Shown: piece by piece, positions 9,718 through 61,589 of the stretch | Layout: each line of letters begins with the position of its first letter | Numbering within the stretch: position 1 is the first letter of the stretch | Source: Ecdyonurus torrentis | Lineage: Eukaryota > Arthropoda > Insecta > Ephemeroptera > Heptageniidae | Direction of reading: 5' to 3' | NCBI GenBank assembly: GCA_949318235.1 | Contig: OX439134.1 | Location: 26,667,793 to 26,731,792, forward strand | Length of the DNA: 64,000 nt | Translations under genes and position numbers: made by a program | The notes under the pieces: generated by a model | What the model saw: only the letters and a program-made list of their open reading frames with translations | Databases searched by the model: none | What the model was told of the DNA's origin: nothing

Positions 9718-12216
9718 TGTTCTTATTAATTAAAACAGCAGTATTATAATTATCACAACTAATTAACATTAAATAACTTTCTTTCTCTAGGAACATATAT
9801 AAAGCACTATTATTATCTATTAGGTATATGAAGCATCTTACGTATATATGAAAGTGAATTAATTGAATTTATTAACAATCACGAAGTTAAATATATATTG
9901 TGATCAAAAATCTGATAACAGTTTTTTCGCTTCATCACCTTATTTACCATTTGTATTAACTTTTATTTACTATTAGATCGTAAAGAAATATTAATTTGCA
10001 ATATTTTTATTTATTTGCTAATATAATTTATTATAGTGTTGATGTAAATATGTTTATATCACCTTATTTTTATAATTGTTCATTAATTAAGTGTGCAATC
10101 AAAATATGTTTATTTTTATGATGTAAGTGATATGCTGATTGTATATCTGGAAATTTCAAGTTTCGTATGGTATTAATATGCTTATTTGTATAGTGCTTAT
10201 TATTGTTTAATTTGGGAATCTTAATTTATTCTATTTTAATGTTTGCAAACTTTTTTTTTTTTTTTTTTTTTTTTTCTACCTGAAATGGATTTTGTGTTAA
10301 TAAATTTTCATGAAAGAAATTATTATACAAAATTAAATGTATAAAAATATTTAAAGAATTCATTGAAAGCGCAAATTTTATCTAATTAAAATTATGCGAT
10401 GCTAATTTTTTTAATTAAAGGCGTAGAACACCTTGAACAAAGAAGTTGCGTAATATCCTAACAAACCTGAAAATCAACGTTGATTTGGCCAAAGTCATTG
10501 ATTTCTAATTTATTTTTCATTCACAAAATGCCGCTGGCGGTCACTGTCATCACAGCTTGCGTGGTCCACGCGCGCGTAAACCGGGCGAGCTAGCTGTGAC
10601 TTAAGTGACCGCCAGTGTCATTTTGTGAATGGAAAATAAATTAGAAATCAATGAATCCGGCCAAATCAACGTTGATTTTCAGGTAGTTTGTTATGATATT
10701 ATGCAACTTTTTTGTTCAAGGTGTTCTATACACATTTAATAAAATATACAATACAACAATACGCACCATTAAATTCAAGTTCAAATTTTAAAAGTGTTAA
10801 TTTTTCTAATATTTTCATTCCGTATACTCACAACACATATTAATATATACGAATCACTAAAATAATAAATCACAACTCAAAAGTTATAAATACGATCATG
10901 ATAAGTTTCTTTTCCAAGCAGGACTTATGGCTCATACGATATTGATAAGATATTTTTGCACATCTAACATAACACCAACGTATTTCATCATAGGTCACTT
11001 AAGAGGTCATATTATTTTTTTATTAATAACTATGTATTTCAATCCGGATCATAACCCCGCGAGGTCAACAAAAAACATGTGATTTTATCATTGTGTCTAA
11101 ATCAATAGTGTCAGCGTAATGTTTATTTATTTATTGTGAAATTAATATTAAGATTCTAGCATAAGTTATAAAATTTACACTAATATAATTTATAGAAAAC
11201 TACCTCTTTTTATTATTATTATTTTCAATGCAAAAATGGTTATAGCTATCGATATAGTTCAAATAAGTTTTATTTATTTATAATTTTGACCGCAAAATGA
11301 CTCTCTGACTTGCCTATACTCTTACTTTAAAGTCTTTAAATTCTTCAGTTTTTTGTATTAGATTTTATTAATTTACAATTCGAAGCATATTGATGAACTA
11401 CTAAATTATGGAATGGAAAAAAACAAACTTGAAACTTATATTTTTAGTAAATACTCTCTCTCTCTCTCTCTCTTCTTTTCTTTTCTTTTTTTAAGATAAT
11501 ACATCAACTAGTCTTTAATAAATTATACGTACGTACGTATGCATTTCAAGGATGCATTCAAATTTTATTTCCCTAGGAATTCGAAACTCATTATTTCTCT
11601 ATTTTTGTTGTGATTTCATCTCCACCCTTTACCCCCATTAAAATATAAAACAATAAAGGTATACAATTTGTCAACATCATTTTAATTCTCTGCAACTCGC
11701 GTTCCAGAATAGGTATAAACTTTTATAATATTGAGAAGAAAAAATACAAATTGCAAAATTTTATATTTAAAGCTTTACATCAGGAACTGCTTTTTTAACA
11801 TCAGATTTGGATCTGAAACAAGTAATTTTAGATAAATTTATATTTTAGCAATATGGCATAAATTTATATTGTAGTACAGTAAAGGCTAGAATAATAATAA
11901 GAACATAATATTATAGACTAAAAAAAAAAAAATAAATAAATAAATAAATAAATAAATAAAACACTAACTATTTTACTCTTGTTCGTTTCATAGCTAAAAA
12001 CTATAGTTTTTTTTAATTTGAACAAGTTTATAATGACAAAAAAAATCCTATATAAAAAAAATAATAAAAAAACCTTAACAACGGCAATGAAAATTATTTT
12101 CATTCATTATTATTATTATTATTATTATTTATTTTTTTTTTTACTTCTTTTTTTTGCAAAGCAAGCTACCGTATATTTGTTTATTTTCCCGCTCCCCAGT
12201 GTCACTTTGGTGCATC
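9718..12216. other. Intergenic between transporter genes A and B
   Basis: AT-rich sequence that should contain the promoter of gene A (reading left) and the 3' flank of gene B. It holds one TTAA-flanked MITE (10419-10735), a T run near 10252-10275, a short (CT)n near 11455-11473 and an (AAAT)n block near 11931-11960. No coding exon is supported. Confidence 0.6.
10419..10735. mobile_element. TTAA-flanked palindromic MITE, family P, copy 2
   Basis: TTAA at 10415-10418 and 10736-10739. The left end AGGCGTAGAACACCTTGAAC mirrors the right end GTTCAAGGTGTTCTA; the last bases of the right end are diverged. Same core order as copy 1, including the CACGCGCGCGTAAACC centre. It lies 0.7 kb upstream of gene A. 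Confidence 0.85.
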
Positions 12217-14303
12217 TCACCTGCAGAATTTTTCTCCATCCTCTATGGTGTCCGGCAGATCCTGATGCAAAGTTTCAGGTAGCATAAGAGTTAGAAGTCC
12301 TGATATCAGGGTCATACATCCTAGCAAGAAGAATGGAAATTGAAGCCACAATGATGTCTGAAAATTAATAAAATCAGTAATTCATGTCTTAAATTAAATT
12401 TATAAACATAAAGCGAACTTAGTCATCGCATGGACAAAAATAAAAAATACGTATGTAATAATTATATTATACTGTAGCTCATTTTTATCAACGTTTGTTT
12501 ATAAAAACATAATTTATGCTATAATGTATTAACAACTATACAAAAATGTTGTGCAGCATAATTATTTAGCAATTTAGCAACATTTATGCTATAATGATAT
12601 AAATGCAGCATAAATTACGTAGTTTCTTCTATAACTGTGCGTACATTTATTTATTTAGATTTACCTTTTTTTTTCTTTTTTTTTTTACTGAAATAAAAGC
12701 ATTTTATAACTTAACATTTATTAAAATTACGCAGGTAAATTATGCAGATAAATAATCAAAATTGTTGCCCTATATGTGTTTCGTTTTTATTGCCAATGTA
12801 TGCTTCAATGGTTGTTTTATCTATAGTGCGCTTTGCATTTTGTGCAGGACACTAAAAATTATCATTGATCAATTTTTTTTTATTGAACTGAATTTGAATA
12901 AGGTGTCCAAATCCAAATAAAGAAAAACCTCACAGAACTGTAGTCAGTAAATTGAAACTTAAAAAATCAAAGGTGTTTATATTTTACAGGATTTCATTCT
13001 ATCTTCTCAATGTTTGAATTACTCCTAAAACAAAACTCCATTGCCTTAATCTTAATACATAAGCATAACAGCGAGAACAAAAAAATTAAATATTACCAAT
13101 AATATAACGAAAGGAGCGATCATGGCACCGACGCCAGCCATGGTGGCAGCCGCTCCGATCACCGCAGTTCTCACACACGTTGGGAATATTTCTGCAGATA
13201 TAATGTACGCGCATCCACATGAGGCAGTCACAGCCATCTTACCCAACATTGCGAGGGTCAGTTGAAGCCAGGGTACACCTGGATTAATGAAAAAAAGTTT
13301 CAATTTTAATAGTATATGATATATATCTTCCAGTTTATATAAAAATACAGAAATCATAGTGCAAGTGCATATATATAGATGGAATGTTTTACTGATTACC
13401 ATAAACTCAACCCAATTCAATTCAAAATAGGCTTTATTGCAAAAAACACATTACAACCCTGCAGAATTTAGAAGTTATGCAACCTAAGTCACTTAGGTTG
13501 CATAACTTCTACCTAAGTCACACATGTCACATGTGTTCAAACAATTTCCTGCCTATCATGTCTGGAAAAATAATAATAATAAGTTCTTATAAGCTGTATA
13601 ATATTATGTTATCATATAGTTCAGATATCAATCATGTAGCTTAGAGTTCCAGATTATTATTATTAAAAAAAGGTTAATATAAACTGAAAGTATAGCTATA
13701 TATGTTTATAAAACGAAGCAAAAGTTTGCGCCTACAGCACGCGGTGTTCCCAGGCGGTCACCCATCCAAGTACTGACCACGCTCGACATTGCTTAACTTC
13801 GGTGATCGGACGAGAACCGGTGTTTTCAATGTGATATGGCCGTAGACAATTCTATGTACCATTGATTCTGCTTCTTATTCGTCACTTGCTTCTCACGCGA
13901 TCAATACAAATGACGTCACACGCAAAAGTCAATATTTATCGTGACGTCACATAGCTGTGTGAACTGCGAGTTGTTTATCAGATAAATTTACTGAGCCTTG
14001 CTTAGCTAGATTGTCTACGGCCATATCACATTGAAAACACCGGTTCTCGTCCGATCACCGAAGTTAAGCAATGTCGAGCGTGGTCAGTACTTGGATGGGT
14101 GACCGCCTGGGAACACCACGTGCTGTAGACGCCACTTTTTATTTATTTCTTTTCATTTTATTTTTAACTATATGATTTATTGGTATTATATTTTGTGTTA
14201 TTGTTTTCCTTCAAATTTTATTCCAAACGGGACATAGACATTATTTTTATTATTTTTTAATACTTGAAGATCAGGAAGATTAGCCCAGCATCAATTGGTC
14301 AAC

Positions 14304-14338
<35 letters not shown>

Positions 14339-16353
14339 ACTTTGTGCTACAAGTGAAGAGAGTAGCAATGAACATGCTGCTATGAGGATAGAGGTACTCA
14401 ACACGGGCTGACGTCCCCAACTATTGACACCAAGCATGACGCACACGTAAGCCGGTAACTCTGTTGCGCCGGAGATGACAAAGTTGGCGTAAGGGTCACC
14501 ACCAAGACTGCTCATGTTCCAAGTGATACCGAAATATGACAAATTGTTAACGAACCTATAATTTAGAAACATGAACAATTAACAATATAAAACATAAAAT
14601 AATACTCTTAATTAATGTTATTATTATGACATAGCTTATGAAGCATTTAGAAAATATATTAATTTAAATATATTTTTGAAAGTTGGTATATTTATTCATT
14701 AACAAGTAAATGAGATAATAAAATGAAAATTATTATTTTAAACACGTTTTGACTGGACACTATGCACAATGAATTGTGTAACGATTTCGTTTAATGATTT
14801 AAGAAAACAGCAAAAACATATTTTTCAGAACCTCGCAGAAACAATTACTTGCCTTAAATATTCTATAGAATTCTATTGAATTTATACTCTTACATTTATA
14901 TCTTGTATTTTGCATGTATTTTTTATTTCTAAGTTTGATGTATATAGCATAAAAACAATATTTTTATTTCAATTAAATTTTTAATTCATCCTCAGCATAA
15001 GAGATTTTGTTATTTAGTTTAGGAAGCAAAATGTATGACATAAATAAATCTTCTGAGCGTATAAATTGCTAAAATTTTAACAATTATTTTCAAGGCAAAT
15101 AAAACATAATATATCATTCATTACGTCTATAAAAGGTTTTCTAAACAAAGATTTAAAAAAAACTCGCACAGGACAAAAATTTAGGAATTGTGTGTCAGAC
15201 TTGTCGGCGTAAGAACAAATAAGTCTAAAACATAATAATAATGATTTTGACTACAATAGTTTTCAATTAATTTTAATTATCATTATATTGTTTATAATAT
15301 AATTCATAATCATAGACTAACCAATCAATAGTTAATCGTATGACTTTAAGTTATTATAATTAATTATGTGAAGGCCATAATTGAAAGAACATCAATTAAT
15401 CAATCTCCCTATTTTATATTTACTCACCAGACAAAAAGTACGATGAACATGTTTCTTCTTAGATAAGGGTATTTAAATATTTGCAGCAGTGAGCGAGACT
15501 CGCCGTGTTTTTCTCTAATAATGTCATCAGCCACTGCGTTTACAGTTTTGTCCACCATTTCAGAGCTAAGCTGTAATAAATTGGGATAAAAAAAAATATT
15601 TTTTTTCTTTTTATCTTGAGCAATAAATGCCACTTTATAAATAATTCCTACCCCAGATTTATTTTCCCTCGCTATTTTCTGAAGTATTATTGAAGCCTCC
15701 GCAATTCGCTCTTCACCAATCAACCACCGTGGAGACTCGGGGATTGCCCTGCAGTTAAATGTCAATATTAAGGATTATTTAAATATTTACATAGTAATGA
15801 AACGTCAAGTTTAATAGTATTAAAGGCGTAGAACACCTTGAACAAAAAGGTTTTGTAATATCTTAACAAACCTGAAAATCAAATTTGATTTGGCCGGAGT
15901 CATTGATTTCTAATTTATTTTTCCATTCACAAAATGCCGCTGCCGGTCACTGACGTCACAGCTCGCCCGGTTTACTTGCGCGTGTACCAGGCGAGCTGTG
16001 ACGTCAGTGACCGCCAGTGTCATTTTGTGAATGGAAAATAAATTAGAAATCAATGAATCCGGCCAAATCAACGTTGATTTTCAGGTTTGTTAGGATATAT
16101 TACAAAACTTTTTTGTTCAAGGTGTTCTACGCCTTTAAATAGCTCACCACCAGTACAGGAAGAGGATAATACCAGGGAGTGATAGTGCAAGTTGAAGATG
16201 ACGCCAGTCTGTAATGAGGTAGGCGAATACCGCAGTCAGCATGTATCCAAAACTAAAGAAAATTTGCAACATCACACCTGCGTACTGGCGCTTTGAGGCT
16301 CCGACCATCTCTATACCTGAAAAGTAAATTAAAATTCATTAAATTAATCAGCC

Positions 16354-22506: not shown

Positions 22507-22856
22507 AGGGAGGGACAAACGGAATACATTATTTTTTTCAATTAACTTTCAAAGGGTTTTTTATATTCGGGGTTAAATTTCAGGGGTTTTGGTTGTCATT
22601 CTTAATGCAATTTCTTGAACTTGGATCAGTAGAATAACTTCATTGTTGTTAATTTTGAATTGGTATGATCATATAAATATTTTAATAAAACACAGAGAGA
22701 ACGCACTTTTATATATAATAGAATAATTTGTTACTTATCTTTGTTTCACGAACTGAAATATTTTATTTGAATTAAAATTATTAAAATTAAAAAACAATAA
22801 CATAAGACCTATAAATTAATAAAGTACAAAGAATATAACGACTAAAAAAAAGTTGC

Positions 22857-22974
22857 GCCTACAGCACGTGGTGTTCCCAGGCGGTCACCCATCCAAGTAC
22901 TGACCACGCTCGACATTGCTTAACTTCGGTGATCGGACGAGAACCGGTGTTTTCAATGTGATATGGCCGTAGAC
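22857..22974 (-). rRNA. 5S ribosomal RNA gene or 5S-derived arm
   Basis: 118-nt 5S sequence with complete internal control regions. It is followed in its own direction by GCAACTTTTTTT, a good pol III terminator. It is the exact mirror of the opposite arm over nearly the whole length. Confidence 0.92.
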
Positions 22975-23139
22975 AATCAAGTAATGCAAGGCTCAGTAAA
23001 TTTATCTGATAAACAACTCGCAGTTCACACAGCTATGTGACGTCACGATAAATATTGACTTTTGGGTGTGACGTCATTTGTATTGATCGCGTGAGAAGCA
23101 AGTGACGAATATGAAGCAGAATCAATGGTACATAGAATT

Positions 23140-23257
23140 GTCTACGGCCATATCACATTGAAAACACCGGTTCTCGTCCGATCACCGAAGTTAAGCAATG
23201 TCGAGCGTGGTCAGTACTTGGATGGGTGACCGCCTGGGAACACCACGTGCTGTAGGC
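23140..23257 (+). rRNA. 5S ribosomal RNA gene or 5S-derived arm
   Basis: 118-nt 5S sequence from GTCTACGGCC to GCTGTAGGC with intact box A and box C regions and a following CAACTTTTTAA terminator. Together with its mirror arm it is the pair most likely to be functional. Confidence 0.92.
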
Positions 23258-24517
23258 GCAACTTTTTAATTCTTTCTTTGCTCTATAATTATTATAATAA
23301 TTTTTTTAAAATTTATTTAAGTTAAAATTTCGCATTGATATAATTTGCATAATGTTATTTAAATTGTGCATGCATTGATGAAGAGCTTGAAAAATAATTA
23401 ATGGCTAACTTCCAGACAATATAGCCATATAGCAATTATATGTATAACATAATATAACAATATTTGAAACGGGAGTATAATGATCAACTTTACATTGGCT
23501 TTTGTATGCGCTGCCATGGCAGAACATACGTTTGTGGGATTAAATATTTCCAAAAATTACAAAATTTCTGCTAAAATTGTAATGTTATTCATTATGTGAA
23601 AAACGCACTTAATTTAAATGGTAAAATATACCGTGTGTACATGAGAGCATGAAGCTCATATTACGCTTAGAGGTATAAACTAATCTAAAAATTAGGTCTT
23701 AGCTCCAGTTCTATATAATATTGTAGTATAATAAAATAAATATAGGGATGCTTCCTAATCCTAATGTTCAAAGTATTTTGCTATAGTGATACAGCTTTAT
23801 AATCAAGGTTTATAAGATCTCTATATAACCCTTGATTATAATAATAATAATAAAAATAGAAACATAGTGGACTTCATAAGTATAAGTAAAATACAACAAG
23901 AAACATTTTCGTTGCACTATATTAGAGTTTTTTTTCTTTTTTTTTTTTTTTTATTGCTTTAGGCTATTCTGATTATTAATGAATGGACTTCGTGTTTTCG
24001 GCAAAGAGAGAGAGAGAGAAAATAATTATATTTTGCTTTTTATCTTTGAACAAATTTGATACAGATGAACATGCGAAAGAGAGAGGGGGTGAAAAAGAAT
24101 AATTCATTGCAAATTTATTGAACTTTTTTTTTTAATTACATGTTTCATAAATATGTTTTTATCACTATCCCTTATCCTAAAAGTTTGTAATTTTTTAATA
24201 TTTTTTCTTAATCTTTTCGCATACTTTTTTTAATTATACTTTCAAAACTTATTTTAATTGTTCTCTTGAAAATGTTATGAATAGTATATTATAAAACTTA
24301 TTAATTGAAAGTAAACTCCTTAATAAATAAAGTCGTCCCAAAAACTTAAATTAAGGGAGGGGAATCATACATTTATAACCTTTTCTTTTCCATCTTCAGT
24401 TTTTCCAACTTAATAAATTATTTCTTGTATTTTTGTGGCATTTATATATGTGCTAAAAAAGTGTATTGACGCCATGCAGTTCAATAGGGTTTTTGTAAAT
24501 GGCTTAATACGTGCAAA

Positions 24518-33162: not shown

Positions 33163-33717
33163 TTAATTGATCTTAACTCATTCCCCTGAAACCGAAGCAC
33201 ATCCCTATATAGTTTACAAAATATAATCAAAGTTCCTAAGCTACCCATACTATGGCCCATAGTATGGTAAGAATTTAGAACTATATATATGGCTATAACT
33301 GCTATAAGATGTAAAAAATAATATCTGACTTGCGTGCAGCTTAATCACTAAAACCTTTAATTTTAATTGTATACTGTTTTGTCTTTGTATAGAGAAAGTG
33401 TACTAATATATACACGAGTATATATTCTTCTTAATGCATTAATTGATTATTATACTCTCGTTTTGTTATCTAAATTAATATTACATATATTCATATTTTT
33501 AGCTTGTTATTATATAATAAGACGCTACAGTATATACCTGGTGCATTTACATATTCTTAAATTTTTACAATTTGGCGCAGCAAATTGTGAAATAGAATTG
33601 TTTAAAATGAGAAAAATTATTTTGCTGCGAAGAATCAAAATTAAACAAAAGATTAATTTAGTAAAAGAAAGTATACAGTAATAAAAATTAATAAATAATA
33701 ATAATACAAAAAGATAC

Positions 33718-33835
33718 GCCTACAGCACATGGTGTTCCCAGGCGGTCACCCATCCAAGTACTGACCACGCTCGACATTGCTTAACTTCGGTGATCGGACG
33801 AGAACCGGTGTTTTCAATGTGATATGGCCGTAGAC
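33718..33835 (-). rRNA. 5S ribosomal RNA gene or 5S-derived arm
   Basis: 118-nt 5S sequence, internal control regions intact, with CACCATGTGC instead of CACCACGTGC near the 3' end. Downstream on its strand is CGTATCTTTTTG, a plausible terminator. Confidence 0.88.
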
Positions 33836-33998
33836 GATCTAGCTAAGCAAGGCTCAGTAAATTTATCTGATAACCAGCTCGCAGTTCACAGCTATGTGAC
33901 GTCACGATAAATATTGATTTTTGCGTGTGACGTCATTTATATTGATCGCGTGAGAAGCAAGTGACGAATATCAAGCAGAATCAATGGTATATAGAATT

Positions 33999-34116
33999 GT
34001 CTACGGCCATATCACGTTGAAAACACCGGTTCTCGTCCGATCACCGAAGTTAAGCAATGTCGAGCGTGGTCAGTACTTGGATGGGTGACCGCCTGGGAAC
34101 ACCACGTGCTGTAGGC
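33999..34116 (+). rRNA. 5S ribosomal RNA gene or 5S-derived arm
   Basis: 118-nt 5S sequence with one change (ATCACGTTGAAA rather than ATCACATTGAAA) and intact box A and box C regions. It is followed by CAACTTTTTTTT, a strong pol III terminator. Confidence 0.9.
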
Positions 34117-35689
34117 GCAACTTTTTTTTGCTGTATAATTCTAATTTATTTAATTTAATTAATTGTATCAATAATATTTCTTTAAATATCTTTATTCTGA
34201 TTTCTTAATAAATATTGGGTATAGGTTCTAGGCACAGCTACAAAATATAATAATAATAATAATATATTGTTGTTGAATTCTTAAAACGAGAGTGATGAGT
34301 GATGAGCTTTTACTTTGGTATATCTCTACTGCCGTATGGAAATTTCATGCTGCGCTCAGAAAATATTGCCATCTGAATCAGAGTAGCATAGCTTTTAGTT
34401 TAGGAGTTTAGCAGTTATAGACTATTAGGATCTATATAGCTCCAGGGGTAGAATATTTTGCACATTTTATAATTTTAGGTTCAGATGTTTTATTTAACCT
34501 AAATATATATTTTTTATCTTTCTATTTTCATTTATTCTTGTAATAATAATAATTATAAAAATAATAATAAACTTTAGTAAGGCGTTGTGACTGTTGTGAG
34601 ATCATGACGCATGACAGATTTATTGAAAAACTAAAAACCTATTTAAGTGTCAAAACTTTTCTTTTATATAAATTTTTTACGAGAAGGTCTTTGAGAGCTC
34701 TTTGTTTTAGTTGCAAAATAATATTTCTCATAATATAAGAGAATGGAAAAATGAATTAAAAAAATAATATATATTGCCAGAGAAATATAGGCGTAGCTGA
34801 TTACATGCACGTTTAACAGGTTGCATAACCTGTCAACTTTGCAGGCGCACCAACATGGTTGTAATTGCAAAGAGCAAAGAGCAACAAAAAATTGAGGAAG
34901 TAACAAAAGTATAATATTATAGTTTCAGCTACATATTTACCTGAATATTATATTTCTATTATTTTTCACTAGTGACTATTATGGTATATTTTAGTATTCA
35001 GTTACTTATTTTAAAATTACTTTTATTACATTTTGGGTTGAGATAAGTGAAAATATGCATATATATGTATACATCCGCCTCTAAACATAAATATGAGTTC
35101 TTTATTTGTATTTCCATAACATAAAACCCTTTGAATCTAAACTGATAGTTTAGGGAATTAATGAATTTTAGTTTACGACCATATTACATTGACATTTCAG
35201 GCTCTAATATTGATCACAGAATTGAAACAATGTTGATCGTGGTCCGCAGTAAATGTATGCGGGCTTTACCTCTTTTTGTAGATTCTTTGTCACTTTTATA
35301 TTGTGAAATTGTGATCCATATTGAACATGTTCATTTTCGATTTTTTATATACATTTACTGATAAACGTGATTCAGTATATGATGCAAAATATTATTGGTA
35401 ATTTTTTAGTTAAATCTCCTGCAATAATAAAAGTGGCTTAAGCGCATGCTATTGTCTCGGGACGGTTCACCAAATCCACCTCATCTCACCCATTACATTT
35501 CTATTAAATCACACGTTTGGGTTTAGCCTGTTGTGTGGTATAATTTTCTATTTCATTTTTTTTTTCTTTTTTAGATATAATTTTGACACCATATATAAAC
35601 ACCTTTAATTCAAATAAATATTATATATTTAATATTTAAATTATTGAGAGTGTGTAATTTTAAGCCTATATACTTTTACACGGGAAGTT

Positions 35690-53049: not shown

Positions 53050-56000
53050 ACGAGACGTTAAGTATCCCGAAAAATCTTCACTACTGCGCATGCGCGATTT
53101 TGAACATTTCAGCCCGCCATCAGCTGGGAATGAGTTTTGCGATAAATATTACGATTTTCTCGAGCTGTTTTCTACTTTTTAAAGAAATTACTAGATTAAG
53201 ATGAATGTGGAACTTATTAATTATATATTATCCGATTTTCGATCTTTATATTTGTAAATTACGTTAACATTTAAACTCGCAAAGCAACTAAATCTAGAGG
53301 CGACAAAATTATGATTTTTTATTTTGCTTAGTTAATTTTCGGTAATATGCAGTGTTTTTGTTGTGATTTTGCATGATCTTTGTTCATTTTATTTAAAGCA
53401 ATACAATATAAATTATATTACATACGTAAAACGCATGATTTTCAATTTTCTCGGCTTGATACGAGCATGATATATATTATATAGCTCGTAGCTCGGCGGT
53501 GAAGTTGCACCATCCAAGGTCCAAGGTGCTTCGATTTTTTTTTTTATTTTATTTTTTTTTTTTTTGCTGTAATTTTTAAGAAAACAAAACTATCTTGCAC
53601 TGATTCCGAAAAATTTAAAATGCGGGATAGGTACAAAGCATTTCCTTATTTTAATTACGATGAAATTTTCTTCTTTTTTTTTTAGTTAGCAATTTTTTTG
53701 CATTGGACAAGAAAATCAACTATTGGAAATGAAATAAATTTACAGCTCAAATAAAATGATACCCTATATTGGCCTATATATATAAAAGAATTATCTAAAA
53801 AAAAATAAAGTGCAAATTCTTTTATATCTCTTTATTTTATTTTATTTATTATTTTTTTTTTTTATGAAAAATTAAAAGAAAAGGTAATGGAAATAAAATA
53901 GAATGATATCAAATTTCTGTTATTCACAAAACTATACAGGGAATAAGTGATTTTTTTTAAGCTCACATATATATGACAAAGAAATTATTGTTATGTAATT
54001 TTTAATGTAAATATTATGCTTATGGATTCAGGGTAATCTCATTTTTATTTATAAATTTTATATAATGTTTTTTTTTTTTAAGAAAAATATTGTACATTAC
54101 CAATGCTGGAAAATTTTTAAGGCATGCATTTATTACTATTATTATTAGGGTATGTCAAAATTTACGTCGTCAAGGCTGGTTTACGAGCTAGCAGGGGAGG
54201 AGTTATTTGTAACGGAACTACAAGTGAAATTTAAATTGTTAAAAACAGATAATTACATTAAATTTGTTAAGGATAGACTAAGTAAAACTGAAGATATCAG
54301 CCTGGCCTTCTATAATACCCCTGCATTTAATATTAATAATATTAATGGGTGGAAAGGCCCAAACTGTACAGACAGGCATGTTTTTACCTGTTATGCGGTG
54401 CATGGTTTCCACCATGTAATCTGTCAAATTAAAGAATTTCACGAGTGTAATGATAAATGTGTATGTGTATTATGTAGTGGCCTATGTACTAGGTACCACT
54501 TACTTCATTGTCCATCTCGGACCCTATCATTAAGTCAATATGCAAAAATGTAGACCTATATAAATATGTATATAAATATGTATAAGTACACCTTGGTGTT
54601 TAATAAATAAATAATAATTAGGGTGTTTGACAGAAGAAGAATCTTTTTTTAATTCCTAATTTTGTTTTACATTTTTTTTCTCTTTTAGTTGTATCCGAAT
54701 AGTTTTATTTTTTACAACTCTTTGATACGTTACGAAATAAATTTGCAGCTCAATTAAATTCCCTTAAAATAAATTCCCTATAAAACAACACAATAATTTG
54801 TAAGTTTTTCTTTTTTCTATTATTTCGGATTTTTTTTTAGATACAAATTTGAATTTGATACAAGTCTTCCTTAAAAAAAAAAGATCTTAGTGCTATTTAA
54901 TGATTATTTACAATACGTAACAATAAGTACGGACATTTTTTATTTGTGTACCAATTATAACGCTTTATGACTTCTATGATTTCATAATAATGCTATATTT
55001 TAATTGCGTTTGAACAATAAAGTAAATATAAAAAAAATAATAATAATGATTTGTGTAAAACTTGAAAGTGCTTTCACCATTTATATATATACTTTAATGC
55101 AATTGATGTAATGAATCATCAAATATTAAATTGTTTAATTTAAATGGCAAAAAATATTTTCCTATAGGCATTTATCAACATGATAAATTTATGAAAGATA
55201 TAAAATAATAATATACAGACCCCCCCTCCCTCATTTAACAATATTTACTGTGTGAACTAACTCTACAACTATAAATACCATAACTATATACTTACACTCA
55301 AACAATTAGTCTCTATATAACCATAGTCTGTTTATAAAAAAAGGAAAATATTAAAAATATTTAAGTATTATATAACCACATTTATAAAATTTCTAGCATC
55401 GGTATAATGTACTACACTTTTCTAAAATATATATATATATATATATTATATATAAAATTTATAAATAAAAATGAAATTACCCTGAATCCATAAGCATAAT
55501 ATTTACATTAAAAATTACATAACAATAATTTCTTTGTCATATGTGAGCTTAAAAAAAATCACTTATTCCCTGTATAGTTTTGTGAATAACAGAAATTTGA
55601 TATCATTCTATTTTATTTCCATTACCTTTTCTTTTAATTTTTCATAAAAAAAAATAATAATAAATAAAATAAAATAAAATAAAGAGATATAAAAGAATTT
55701 GCACTTTATTTTTTTTTAGATAATTCTTTTATATATATAGGCCAATATAGGGTATCATTTTATTTGAGCTGTAAATTTATTTCATTTCCAATAGTTGATT
55801 TTCTTGTCCAATGCAAAAAAATTGCTATAACTAAAAAAAAAAGAAGAAAATTTCATCGTAATTAAAATAAGGAAATGCTTTGTACCTATCCCGCATTTTA
55901 AATTTTTCGGAATCAGTGCAAGATAGTTTTGTTTTCTTAAAAATTACAGCAAAAAAAAAAAAAAATAAAATAAAAAAAAAAATCGAAGCACCTTGGACCT

Positions 56001-56467
56001 TGGATGGTGCAACTTCACCGCCGAGCTACGAGCTATATAATATATATCATGCTCGTATCAAGCCGAGAAAATTGAAAATCATGCGTTTTACGTATGTAAT
56101 ATAATTTATATTGTATTGCTTTAAATAAAATGAACAAAGATCATGCAAAATCACAACAAAAACACTGCATATTACCGAAAATTAACTAAGCAAAATAAAA
56201 AATCATAATTTTGTCGCCTCTAGATTTAGTTGCTTTGCGAGTTTAAATGTTAACGTAATTTACAAATATAAAGATCGAAAATCGGATAATATATAATTAA
56301 TAAGTTCCACATTCATCTTAATCTAGTAATTTCTTTAAAAAGTAGAAAACAGCTCGAGAAAATCGTAATATTTATCGCAAAACTCATTCCCAGCTGATGG
56401 CGGGCTGAAATGTTCAAAATCGCGCATGCGCAGTAGTGAAGATTTTTCGGGATACTTAACGTCTCGT
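53050..56467. mobile_element. Large foldback element, 3.4 kb, inverted arms of about 1 kb
   Basis: Left arm 53050-54066 and right arm about 55447-56467 are reverse complements with only occasional substitutions. Outer ends are ACGAGACGTTAAGTATCCCG and its complement. Both flanks carry CTTTTTTT (53042-53049 and 56468-56475), an 8-bp target duplication. Conserved arm blocks include CTTCACTACTGCGCATGCGC and GGCGACAAAATTATGA. The 1.4-kb middle contains a 133-aa ORF with its own 3' end. Long arms plus an 8-bp duplication fit P/Galileo-like, MULE-like or hAT-like foldback elements; I cannot choose among them. It ends 336 bp upstream of the first coding exon of the ZAD zinc-finger gene. Confidence 0.9.
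54152..54553 (+). CDS. Orphan 133-aa ORF inside the foldback element
   Basis: Not recognised. It starts MSKFTSSRLVYELAGEE. The second half is rich in Cys and His (CYAVHGFHHVIC, HECNDKCVCVLC, CTRYHLLHC), which could bind zinc, and it ends LSQYAKM. No membrane segment or signal peptide. It is followed by TACACCTTGGTGTTTAATAA and an AATAAATAAATAA stretch resembling the 3' UTR of the zinc-finger gene at 61806-61835. It may be the remnant of a transposon-encoded or captured host protein. There is no sign of a DDE or RNase H-like transposase. Coding status is unproven. Confidence 0.5.
   Translation: MSKFTSSRLVYELAGEELFVTELQVKFKLLKTDNYIKFVKDRLSKTEDISLAFYNTPAFNINNINGWKGPNCTDRHVFTCYAVHGFHHVICQIKEFHECNDKCVCVLCSGLCTRYHLLHCPSRTLSLSQYAKM

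Positions 56468-56803: not shown

Positions 56804-61589
<4,786 letters not shown>

Follow-up and report, generated by a model that had tools for sequence, protein, structure and literature searches.

Divergent 5S rRNA gene pairs around a shared spacer in a mayfly genome, probably functional and copied within their own chromosomes

The window, by which is meant the whole stretch of 64,000 nucleotides analysed from the mayfly Ecdyonurus torrentis, is animal DNA carrying three SLC22-like transporter genes (A, B and C) on the minus strand, the exons of which were judged by eye from their translations. Since single exons mostly gave no Pfam match (one reached Sugar_tr below threshold, with 19.8 bits against a cut-off of 22.3), the naming of these genes rests on a protein search, in which the best matches of the hand-joined transporter protein were organic cation transporters (Cloeon dipterum 47%, Neocloeon triangulifer 46%). 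A CLIP-domain serine protease lies between the second and third transporter genes (Pfam CLIP and Trypsin, with further exons by eye), and its best matches come mainly from Hymenoptera, at 30-40% identity. C2H2 zinc-finger genes are found at 383-2239 and 59262-61586, the second of which follows a weak zf-AD match (22.2 bits, cut-off 28). The window also holds a foldback-like element at 53050-56467, with 516-nt arms that are 100% complementary and nested arms at 87-99%, inside which the open reading frame 54149-54550 gave no Pfam match. A short palindromic repeat at 2274-2589 has gapless 158-nt arms that are 92% complementary, and relatives of it lie near 10414, 15819 and 58586.

Set among the transporter and protease genes are three units, each made of two 5S rRNA genes pointing outward from a common spacer of 165, 165 or 163 nt (Table 1). 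This arrangement had been predicted from the letters of the window, as had the difference in host context and the reversal of the spacer in unit 1 relative to units 2 and 3; all three points are borne out by the features identified and by comparison of the units. Unit 1 is intronic, unit 2 lies between the last recognisable protease exon and the first exon of transporter B, and unit 3 between the first protease exon and the last exon of transporter C. In the pre-mRNA of gene B, the 131-nt inverted repeat made up of the 5S arms of unit 1 would be included and might fold into a long hairpin of double-stranded RNA. All six arms match the 5S family RF00001 from end to end (model positions 1-120) at 112.9-116 bits, above the gathering score of 38 bits, and keep every model pair; with E about 1e-24 per gene, a chance match is excluded. 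The genes are thus complete, as predicted, though the Rfam match covers 119 nt and not the 118 nt originally given. A run of four to eight T, the terminator signal of RNA polymerase III (pol III), begins 5-6 nt past the gene in all six cases, and the similarity between units stops inside these runs, units 1 and 2 being 97% alike over 432 nt. The pairs are 9-11 kb apart with unrelated DNA in between, which is not the layout of a canonical tandem array, and the clustering of 5S sites within the window is not significant (P 0.11 for four sites, 0.24 for the three units). The fourth site is a decayed relic past unit 3, for which Rfam gave no report at E up to 5 and beside which neither a second arm nor a spacer was detected.

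Table 1. Coordinates of the divergent 5S units and associated features in the window, and the five flank links of the second family on contig C1 (named by the last five digits of their C1 positions)
Feature	Position	Strand	Details
Host intron of unit 1, SLC22-like gene B	13279-14340	-	GT-AG, 1062 nt; 641 nt without unit
Unit 1, divergent 5S pair	13720-14140	-	Spacer reversed relative to units 2 and 3
5S rRNA gene 1L, intact	13729-13847	-	RF00001 113.5 bits; 0/34 non-canonical pairs
Unit 1 spacer	13848-14012	-	165 nt, 1 private change
ATF/CRE-like TGACGTCA, unit 1	13911-13918		63 nt from gene 1L
ATF/CRE-like TGACGTCA, unit 1	13942-13949		63 nt from gene 1R
5S rRNA gene 1R, intact	14013-14131	+	RF00001 116 bits; 0/34 non-canonical pairs
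Unit 2, divergent 5S pair	22844-23267	+	Both arms identical across 131 nt
5S rRNA gene 2L, intact	22856-22974	-	RF00001 114.8 bits; 0/34 non-canonical pairs
Unit 2 spacer	22975-23139	+	165 nt; query of the whole-genome spacer search
ATF/CRE-like TGACGTCA, unit 2	23038-23045		-64..-71 of gene 2L
ATF/CRE-like TGACGTCA, unit 2	23069-23076		-64..-71 of gene 2R
5S rRNA gene 2R, intact	23140-23258	+	RF00001 114.8 bits; 0/34 non-canonical pairs
Unit 3, divergent 5S pair	33708-34129	+	
5S rRNA gene 3L, intact	33717-33835	-	RF00001 112.9 bits; 0/34 non-canonical pairs
Unit 3 spacer	33836-33998	+	163 nt, one 2-nt deletion; TGACGTCA at 33897-33904 and 33928-33935
5S rRNA gene 3R, intact	33999-34117	+	RF00001 113 bits; 0/34 non-canonical pairs
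Decayed 5S relic, about 1 kb past unit 3	35171-35259	+	nhmmer E 3.3e-8
C1 flank link	42591+/47070+		88%
C1 flank link	36558-/42591+		82%
C1 flank link	27532+/62505-		78%
C1 flank link	33536+/60850-		76%
C1 flank link	25780-/42284-		72%

Searches over the whole assembly (503,193,034 bases in 117 contigs) place these units in a wider setting. The RF00001 search returned 47 scored matches from 6,341 first-look candidates, all 47 above the cut-off, a number that is a lower bound for the 5S total of the assembly. They fall into eight clusters, on contigs C1, C4 (two), C8, C12 (two, here C12a and C12b), C15 and C21; on C15, which carries the window, this family search found the six genes of the window only. 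Sixteen stretches were fetched, which together with the window contain 68 5S matches at E 0.001 or better. Sixty of the 68 start at gene base 1 or 2, and for 58 of these 60 the distance from the C15 consensus is at most 14 of 119 positions; within this set of 58, all 34 model pairs are intact in 51 genes, and 57 have four or more T within 30 nt. The C15 spacer has four matches in the assembly (4/4 candidates scored), which are the three units and one decayed half-unit about 160 kb away, where spacer positions 96-165 are followed by a 5S stub; all four lie on C15, in a DNA search that skips very common words and could therefore miss a spacer copy elsewhere. The units had been called dispersed, which holds locally but not genome-wide. 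The expected spread beyond one locus did not appear, and the finding of all copies on a single contig comes near the outcome, all copies in one array, at which the original prediction said that its mobile-element reading would fail.

A second family of divergent pairs lies on C1, where six pairs have spacers of 187, 187, 187, 187, 188 and 180 nt. The C1 spacer gave 13 matches (13/13 candidates), none of them outside a region of about 37 kb on C1: besides the six pairs, there are six half-units and a near-full copy with a single gene. Of the 12 paired C1 genes, one is clearly damaged (four broken pairs and no T run) and two have one broken pair each. A relation between the C15 and C1 spacers could not be shown, as 0.08-0.55 of 300 shuffles reach the observed score in six comparisons. 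Outside these two contigs, the nearest approach to a divergent pair in the fetched stretches is a full gene on C12 with a truncated divergent neighbour, separated by a gap of 207 nt. Palindromes with inward-facing 5S genes occur on C8 (561-nt arms, 99% complementary; L023:1383-2880), on C4 (arms of 451 and 237 nt, 99% complementary; L021:1389-6122) and at C12a (arms of 194-239 nt, 95%), so that inverted duplication appears common in this genome. The C12b cluster has multi-kilobase duplications (L018 and L020 are 94-96% alike over about 3.8 kb in two blocks), a mode of 5S amplification unlike that of C1 and C15. The convergent pairs of C12b were considered as a mobile element and rejected, because they share these duplications. 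Pattern scans of viral contigs and of genome contigs returned 0 stretches.

How the pairs came to lie apart from one another is best approached from their edges. The outer flanks of the C15 units have no significant homology (15 pairs, lowest p 0.018 uncorrected), and their edges may therefore be true insertion edges. It is conceivable, if on balance unlikely, that a 430-nt palindrome was excised or copied as a hairpin, a replication by-product or a small circle and inserted nearby at unrelated sites without a target-site duplication, the sharp edges being those of insertion. Besides the C15 flanks, this would fit the host intron of unit 1, which without the unit is close in length to the paralogous intron of gene A (660 nt; that of gene C has 431 nt), neither paralogous intron containing a 5S match. 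It would also fit the foldability of unit 2, of which a single strand has a folding energy of -195.9 kcal/mol, as compared with a mean of -53.2 for shuffled sequences, and the suggestion, in the accessible part of a study on pikes, that palindromic 5S blocks spread through excision and reintegration (PMC5437419). On C1, however, edges of like kind are overrun by decayed flank homology. The C1 units are 92-96% alike (15 unit pairs), and this similarity stops no more than about 30 nt past the genes, in most cases no more than 8 nt; past some of the edges, decayed homology of 72-88% continues, starting at or near the gene ends. Five such links were used out of the 14 top-scoring among 171 flank pairs. 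Seven of the 14 were set aside as not starting near a gene or as overlapping the same DNA, and two more went unused, 36558-/47070+, which repeats the same flank, and 62505-/62806+, which joins the two flanks of one unit (70%). Four of the five links start at the gene end and one 19-38 nt out. Their scores are 56-180, against null values of 37 (95%) and 66 (99%) for 700-nt pieces; because three of them score only 56-68, near the 99% null, support for these leans on their position. The decayed homology suggests that a sharp edge can, at least on C1, mark where conservation or conversion stops, and not an insertion. Moreover, two of the five links connect a left-type with a right-type gene, a pattern that flipping of the spacer between inverted arms would produce and one that suggests that one C1 flank can adjoin either half of the spacer. 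Further, a spread by circles or linear DNA should have carried copies to other chromosomes too, and no such copy was found; the strictly local copies do not favour a spread via extrachromosomal circles.

The spacers themselves carry an ATF/CRE-like octamer. In units 1 and 2, TGACGTCA occurs twice per spacer, each copy 63 nt from its own gene, and in unit 3 the 2-nt deletion leaves the copies 61 and 63 nt from the genes; two random placements would give the exact symmetry of units 1 and 2 with a probability of 0.0066. AT-rich stretches (8-9 of 11 bases) are present at -32..-22 in the C15 units. The C1 spacers have a single, roughly central octamer, which in the 187-nt copies is 84 nt from one gene and 95 nt from the other; it lies between -85 and -103, as compared with -64..-71 on C15, and has the form TGACGTCA twice, TGACATCA three times and TGACGTCT once. 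In all six C1 half-units the break falls at query positions 76-95, a stretch that includes the octamer (86-93). When TGACGTCA was sought with at most one mismatch within 200 nt upstream of a gene, it was found at 6/6 C15 genes and 15/19 C1 genes (12/12 paired, 3/7 unpaired), and at none of the 33 genes examined on C4, C8, C12 and C21. All 18 genes of the nine divergent pairs have it in the middle part of the spacer. As loci and not genes are the independent units, this contrast is one of two loci against five. TATA-like strings near -30, noted by eye and unscored, precede many genes at the other loci and are absent from the C1 genes. The upstream signals of paired 5S genes seem to differ from those of other 5S genes, and, as far as the sequence can tell, the CRE-like site that a bidirectional ATF/CRE pol III promoter would have between two divergent genes is present.

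The octamer is not confined to these spacers. There are 28 TGACGTCA sites in the window against 0.33 expected from dinucleotides, and TGACGTCA with its overlapping octamers is the most enriched; 6 of the 28 lie in 5S spacers and many others in short inverted repeats, with sites at, for example, 2404, 9098, 15951, 28117, 44587 and 58751. It may be a promoter motif borne by several repeat families of this genome, and with such strong enrichment throughout the window its mere presence in the spacers might have come about as a side effect of repeats. Pairing and octamer alike might also be fossils of an inverted duplication, each gene working alone from its internal promoter and the shared spacer having no role. 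We regard this as a possibility of rather low probability, for which there are nonetheless several observations: four of the six C1 half-units lack the octamer, yet three of those four retain an intact gene; the two halves of the C15 spacer are not alike past the octamer (20/63, p 0.21); and inverted 5S arrangements are found at C4, C8 and C12 as well. The unlikeness of the halves also led to the rejection of the C15 spacer as a decayed inverted duplication. What speaks against a fossil is the mid-spacer position of the octamer in two unrelated families, its absence from the 33 other genes and its exact symmetry in two C15 units. A more far-reaching proposal, and a doubtful one, is that there are two promoter classes, CRE-centred divergent pairs on two chromosomes and CRE-less single, tandem or convergent genes. 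The paired class, with its fixed 5S variants, would then constitute a separately regulated supply, dependent for instance on signals or on the germline, and regulation and local conversion would both have the palindromic pair as their unit.

A mobile palindrome with the 5S genes as terminal repeats was the other half of the original prediction; as an element spreading through the genome, MITE-like or of the foldback kind and moved by a transposase acting in trans, it is largely refuted and now very improbable. The units do have the inverted arms of TIR, MITE and foldback elements (131 nt, 96-100% complementary), and they come in several copies, in both orientations and, in the window, with unrelated flanks. 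However, no target-site duplication was found beyond the cross-flank control in any of nine units: a unit's own flanks match over a mean of 5.2 nt and cross-flank pairs over 5.3 nt, leaving no sign of a duplication of fixed size. Nor are the copies spread over many chromosomes, since the search, which skips very common words, placed every C15 and every C1 spacer match on its own contig. Just three full C15 copies and six full C1 pairs were found in 503 Mb, one contig per family, the two families share no spacer, and the arms are constrained as 5S genes. In 5S-derived SINEs (SINE3), one 5S head is joined to a body and a tail, and duplications flank the element. An element of this type was rejected as well, given two inverted heads, no common body past the T runs and no duplication.

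The constraint on the genes is apparent from a comparison of the three units, in which the genes have 4 changes in 714 nt and the spacers 14 in 493 nt (13 substitutions and one 2-nt indel; Fisher p 0.0025, or 0.015 when four clustered changes in spacer 2 are counted once). Three of the four gene changes fall in model pairs with pairing kept and one is unpaired; as this pairing test on private changes is weak, the argument for constraint rests on the contrast between gene and spacer and on covariation at positions 18 and 60, where the C15 consensus has A18-U60 and the other six family consensuses have G18-C60. This is a compensatory pair change, which speaks for function. That the units are dead 5S pseudogene repeats is scarcely credible, for although there are decayed relics (the C15 half-unit and 35171-35259), the 34 model pairs and a terminator are preserved in all six window genes, and genes change less than spacers. 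Across the loci, the mean difference between two 5S sequences is 1.46 nt when they come from one locus (304 pairs) and 6.75 nt when they come from different loci (1,349 pairs). One identical sequence is common to 11 genes on C4, C8, C12a and C21, and C1, C12b and C15 share no 5S sequence with another locus. Two arms of the same unit resemble each other no more closely than do arms taken from different units (a mean of 2.67 changes per 123 nt in both), so that no conversion between arms is visible.

Overall, the reading that we consider likely is that of functional 5S pairs that share an upstream region and have been copied and homogenised within each chromosome. The first half of the original prediction, a divergent 5S gene unit that is dispersed and has intact pol III signals, is supported by the six intact genes and their T runs. 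Under the proposed mechanism, pol III would transcribe each gene outward from its internal promoter, the ATF/CRE-like octamer in the spacer would assist transcription of the gene pair, and transcription would end at the T run a few nucleotides past the gene. Copying of the pair, in either orientation, would be confined to its own part of the chromosome. Gene conversion and selection would hold genes and spacer alike as the outer flanks decay, and the edges would in this way come to resemble insertion edges. Recombination between the two inverted 5S arms could flip the spacer, which is our proposed explanation for the reversed spacer of unit 1.

Several known systems share parts of this design. 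Inverted 5S sequences were reportedly described in tilapia by Martins and colleagues in 2002, and, going by the title of that work, inverted 5S sequences are the feature that the tilapia case has in common with C15 and C1. In pikes (Esox), 5S genes likewise lie inverted, 8% of the genes being in inverted blocks according to the accessible text (PMC5437419); the pike blocks consist of tandem genes, whereas the mayfly units have single-gene arms, a private spacer and two families each on one contig. The 5S genes of Chariesterus armatus (Bardella and Cabral-de-Mello, 2018, as summarised in the review PMC11354594) are scattered over the whole karyotype with pseudogenised arrays. This is another insect with 5S outside compact clusters, but its spread is karyotype-wide and the summary describes no divergent pair unit, whereas the mayfly families are local. 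Tribolium, by contrast, is described as having 307 5S genes in tandem arrays and only four dispersed copies, with termination and TATA regions marked in the 5S spacer (PMC11202950), as against the small mixed clusters in the mayfly stretches examined. Cassandra elements of plants are presented as non-autonomous retrotransposons with 5S-related sequence in their long terminal repeats (PMC10853983); the mayfly units also have 5S-related sequence in the terminal regions of a repeat, but as complete genes in inverted arms, with spread seen at one locus per family. On the side of regulation, 7SL, vault RNA, EBER and 4.5SH are listed as pol III genes with upstream ATF/CRE and TATA-like boxes, the ATF/CRE effect having been measured for 7SL and 4.5SH (PMC7279448). 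These have a TGACGTCA-type site upstream of a pol III gene, as do the mayfly pairs; their promoters are of type 2 with the site near -50, whereas the putative mayfly site belongs to 5S genes and is common to two of them. A minimal divergent 5S unit with an ATF/CRE site is not described in the accessible text of the open papers listed on CRE-driven 5S, on 5S genes in mayflies or dispersed in other insects, and on divergent, inverted or head-to-head 5S. Within this literature, a spread of inverted 5S blocks has been proposed (pikes), and ATF/CRE sites are known upstream of other pol III genes.

The usual description of 5S genes is of tandem arrays in which concerted evolution maintains uniformity. 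Here, small dispersed pairs are uniform within a chromosome, with no array in the stretches examined, and a single animal thus lets the homogenisation of dispersed rRNA genes be studied. The type-specific positions (18 and 60 for C15, nine fixed positions for C1) should let RNA sequencing separate the 5S classes. Finally, two families of pairs with the same octamer in unrelated spacers raise the question of whether 5S dosage in this mayfly may be wired to ATF/CREB signalling.
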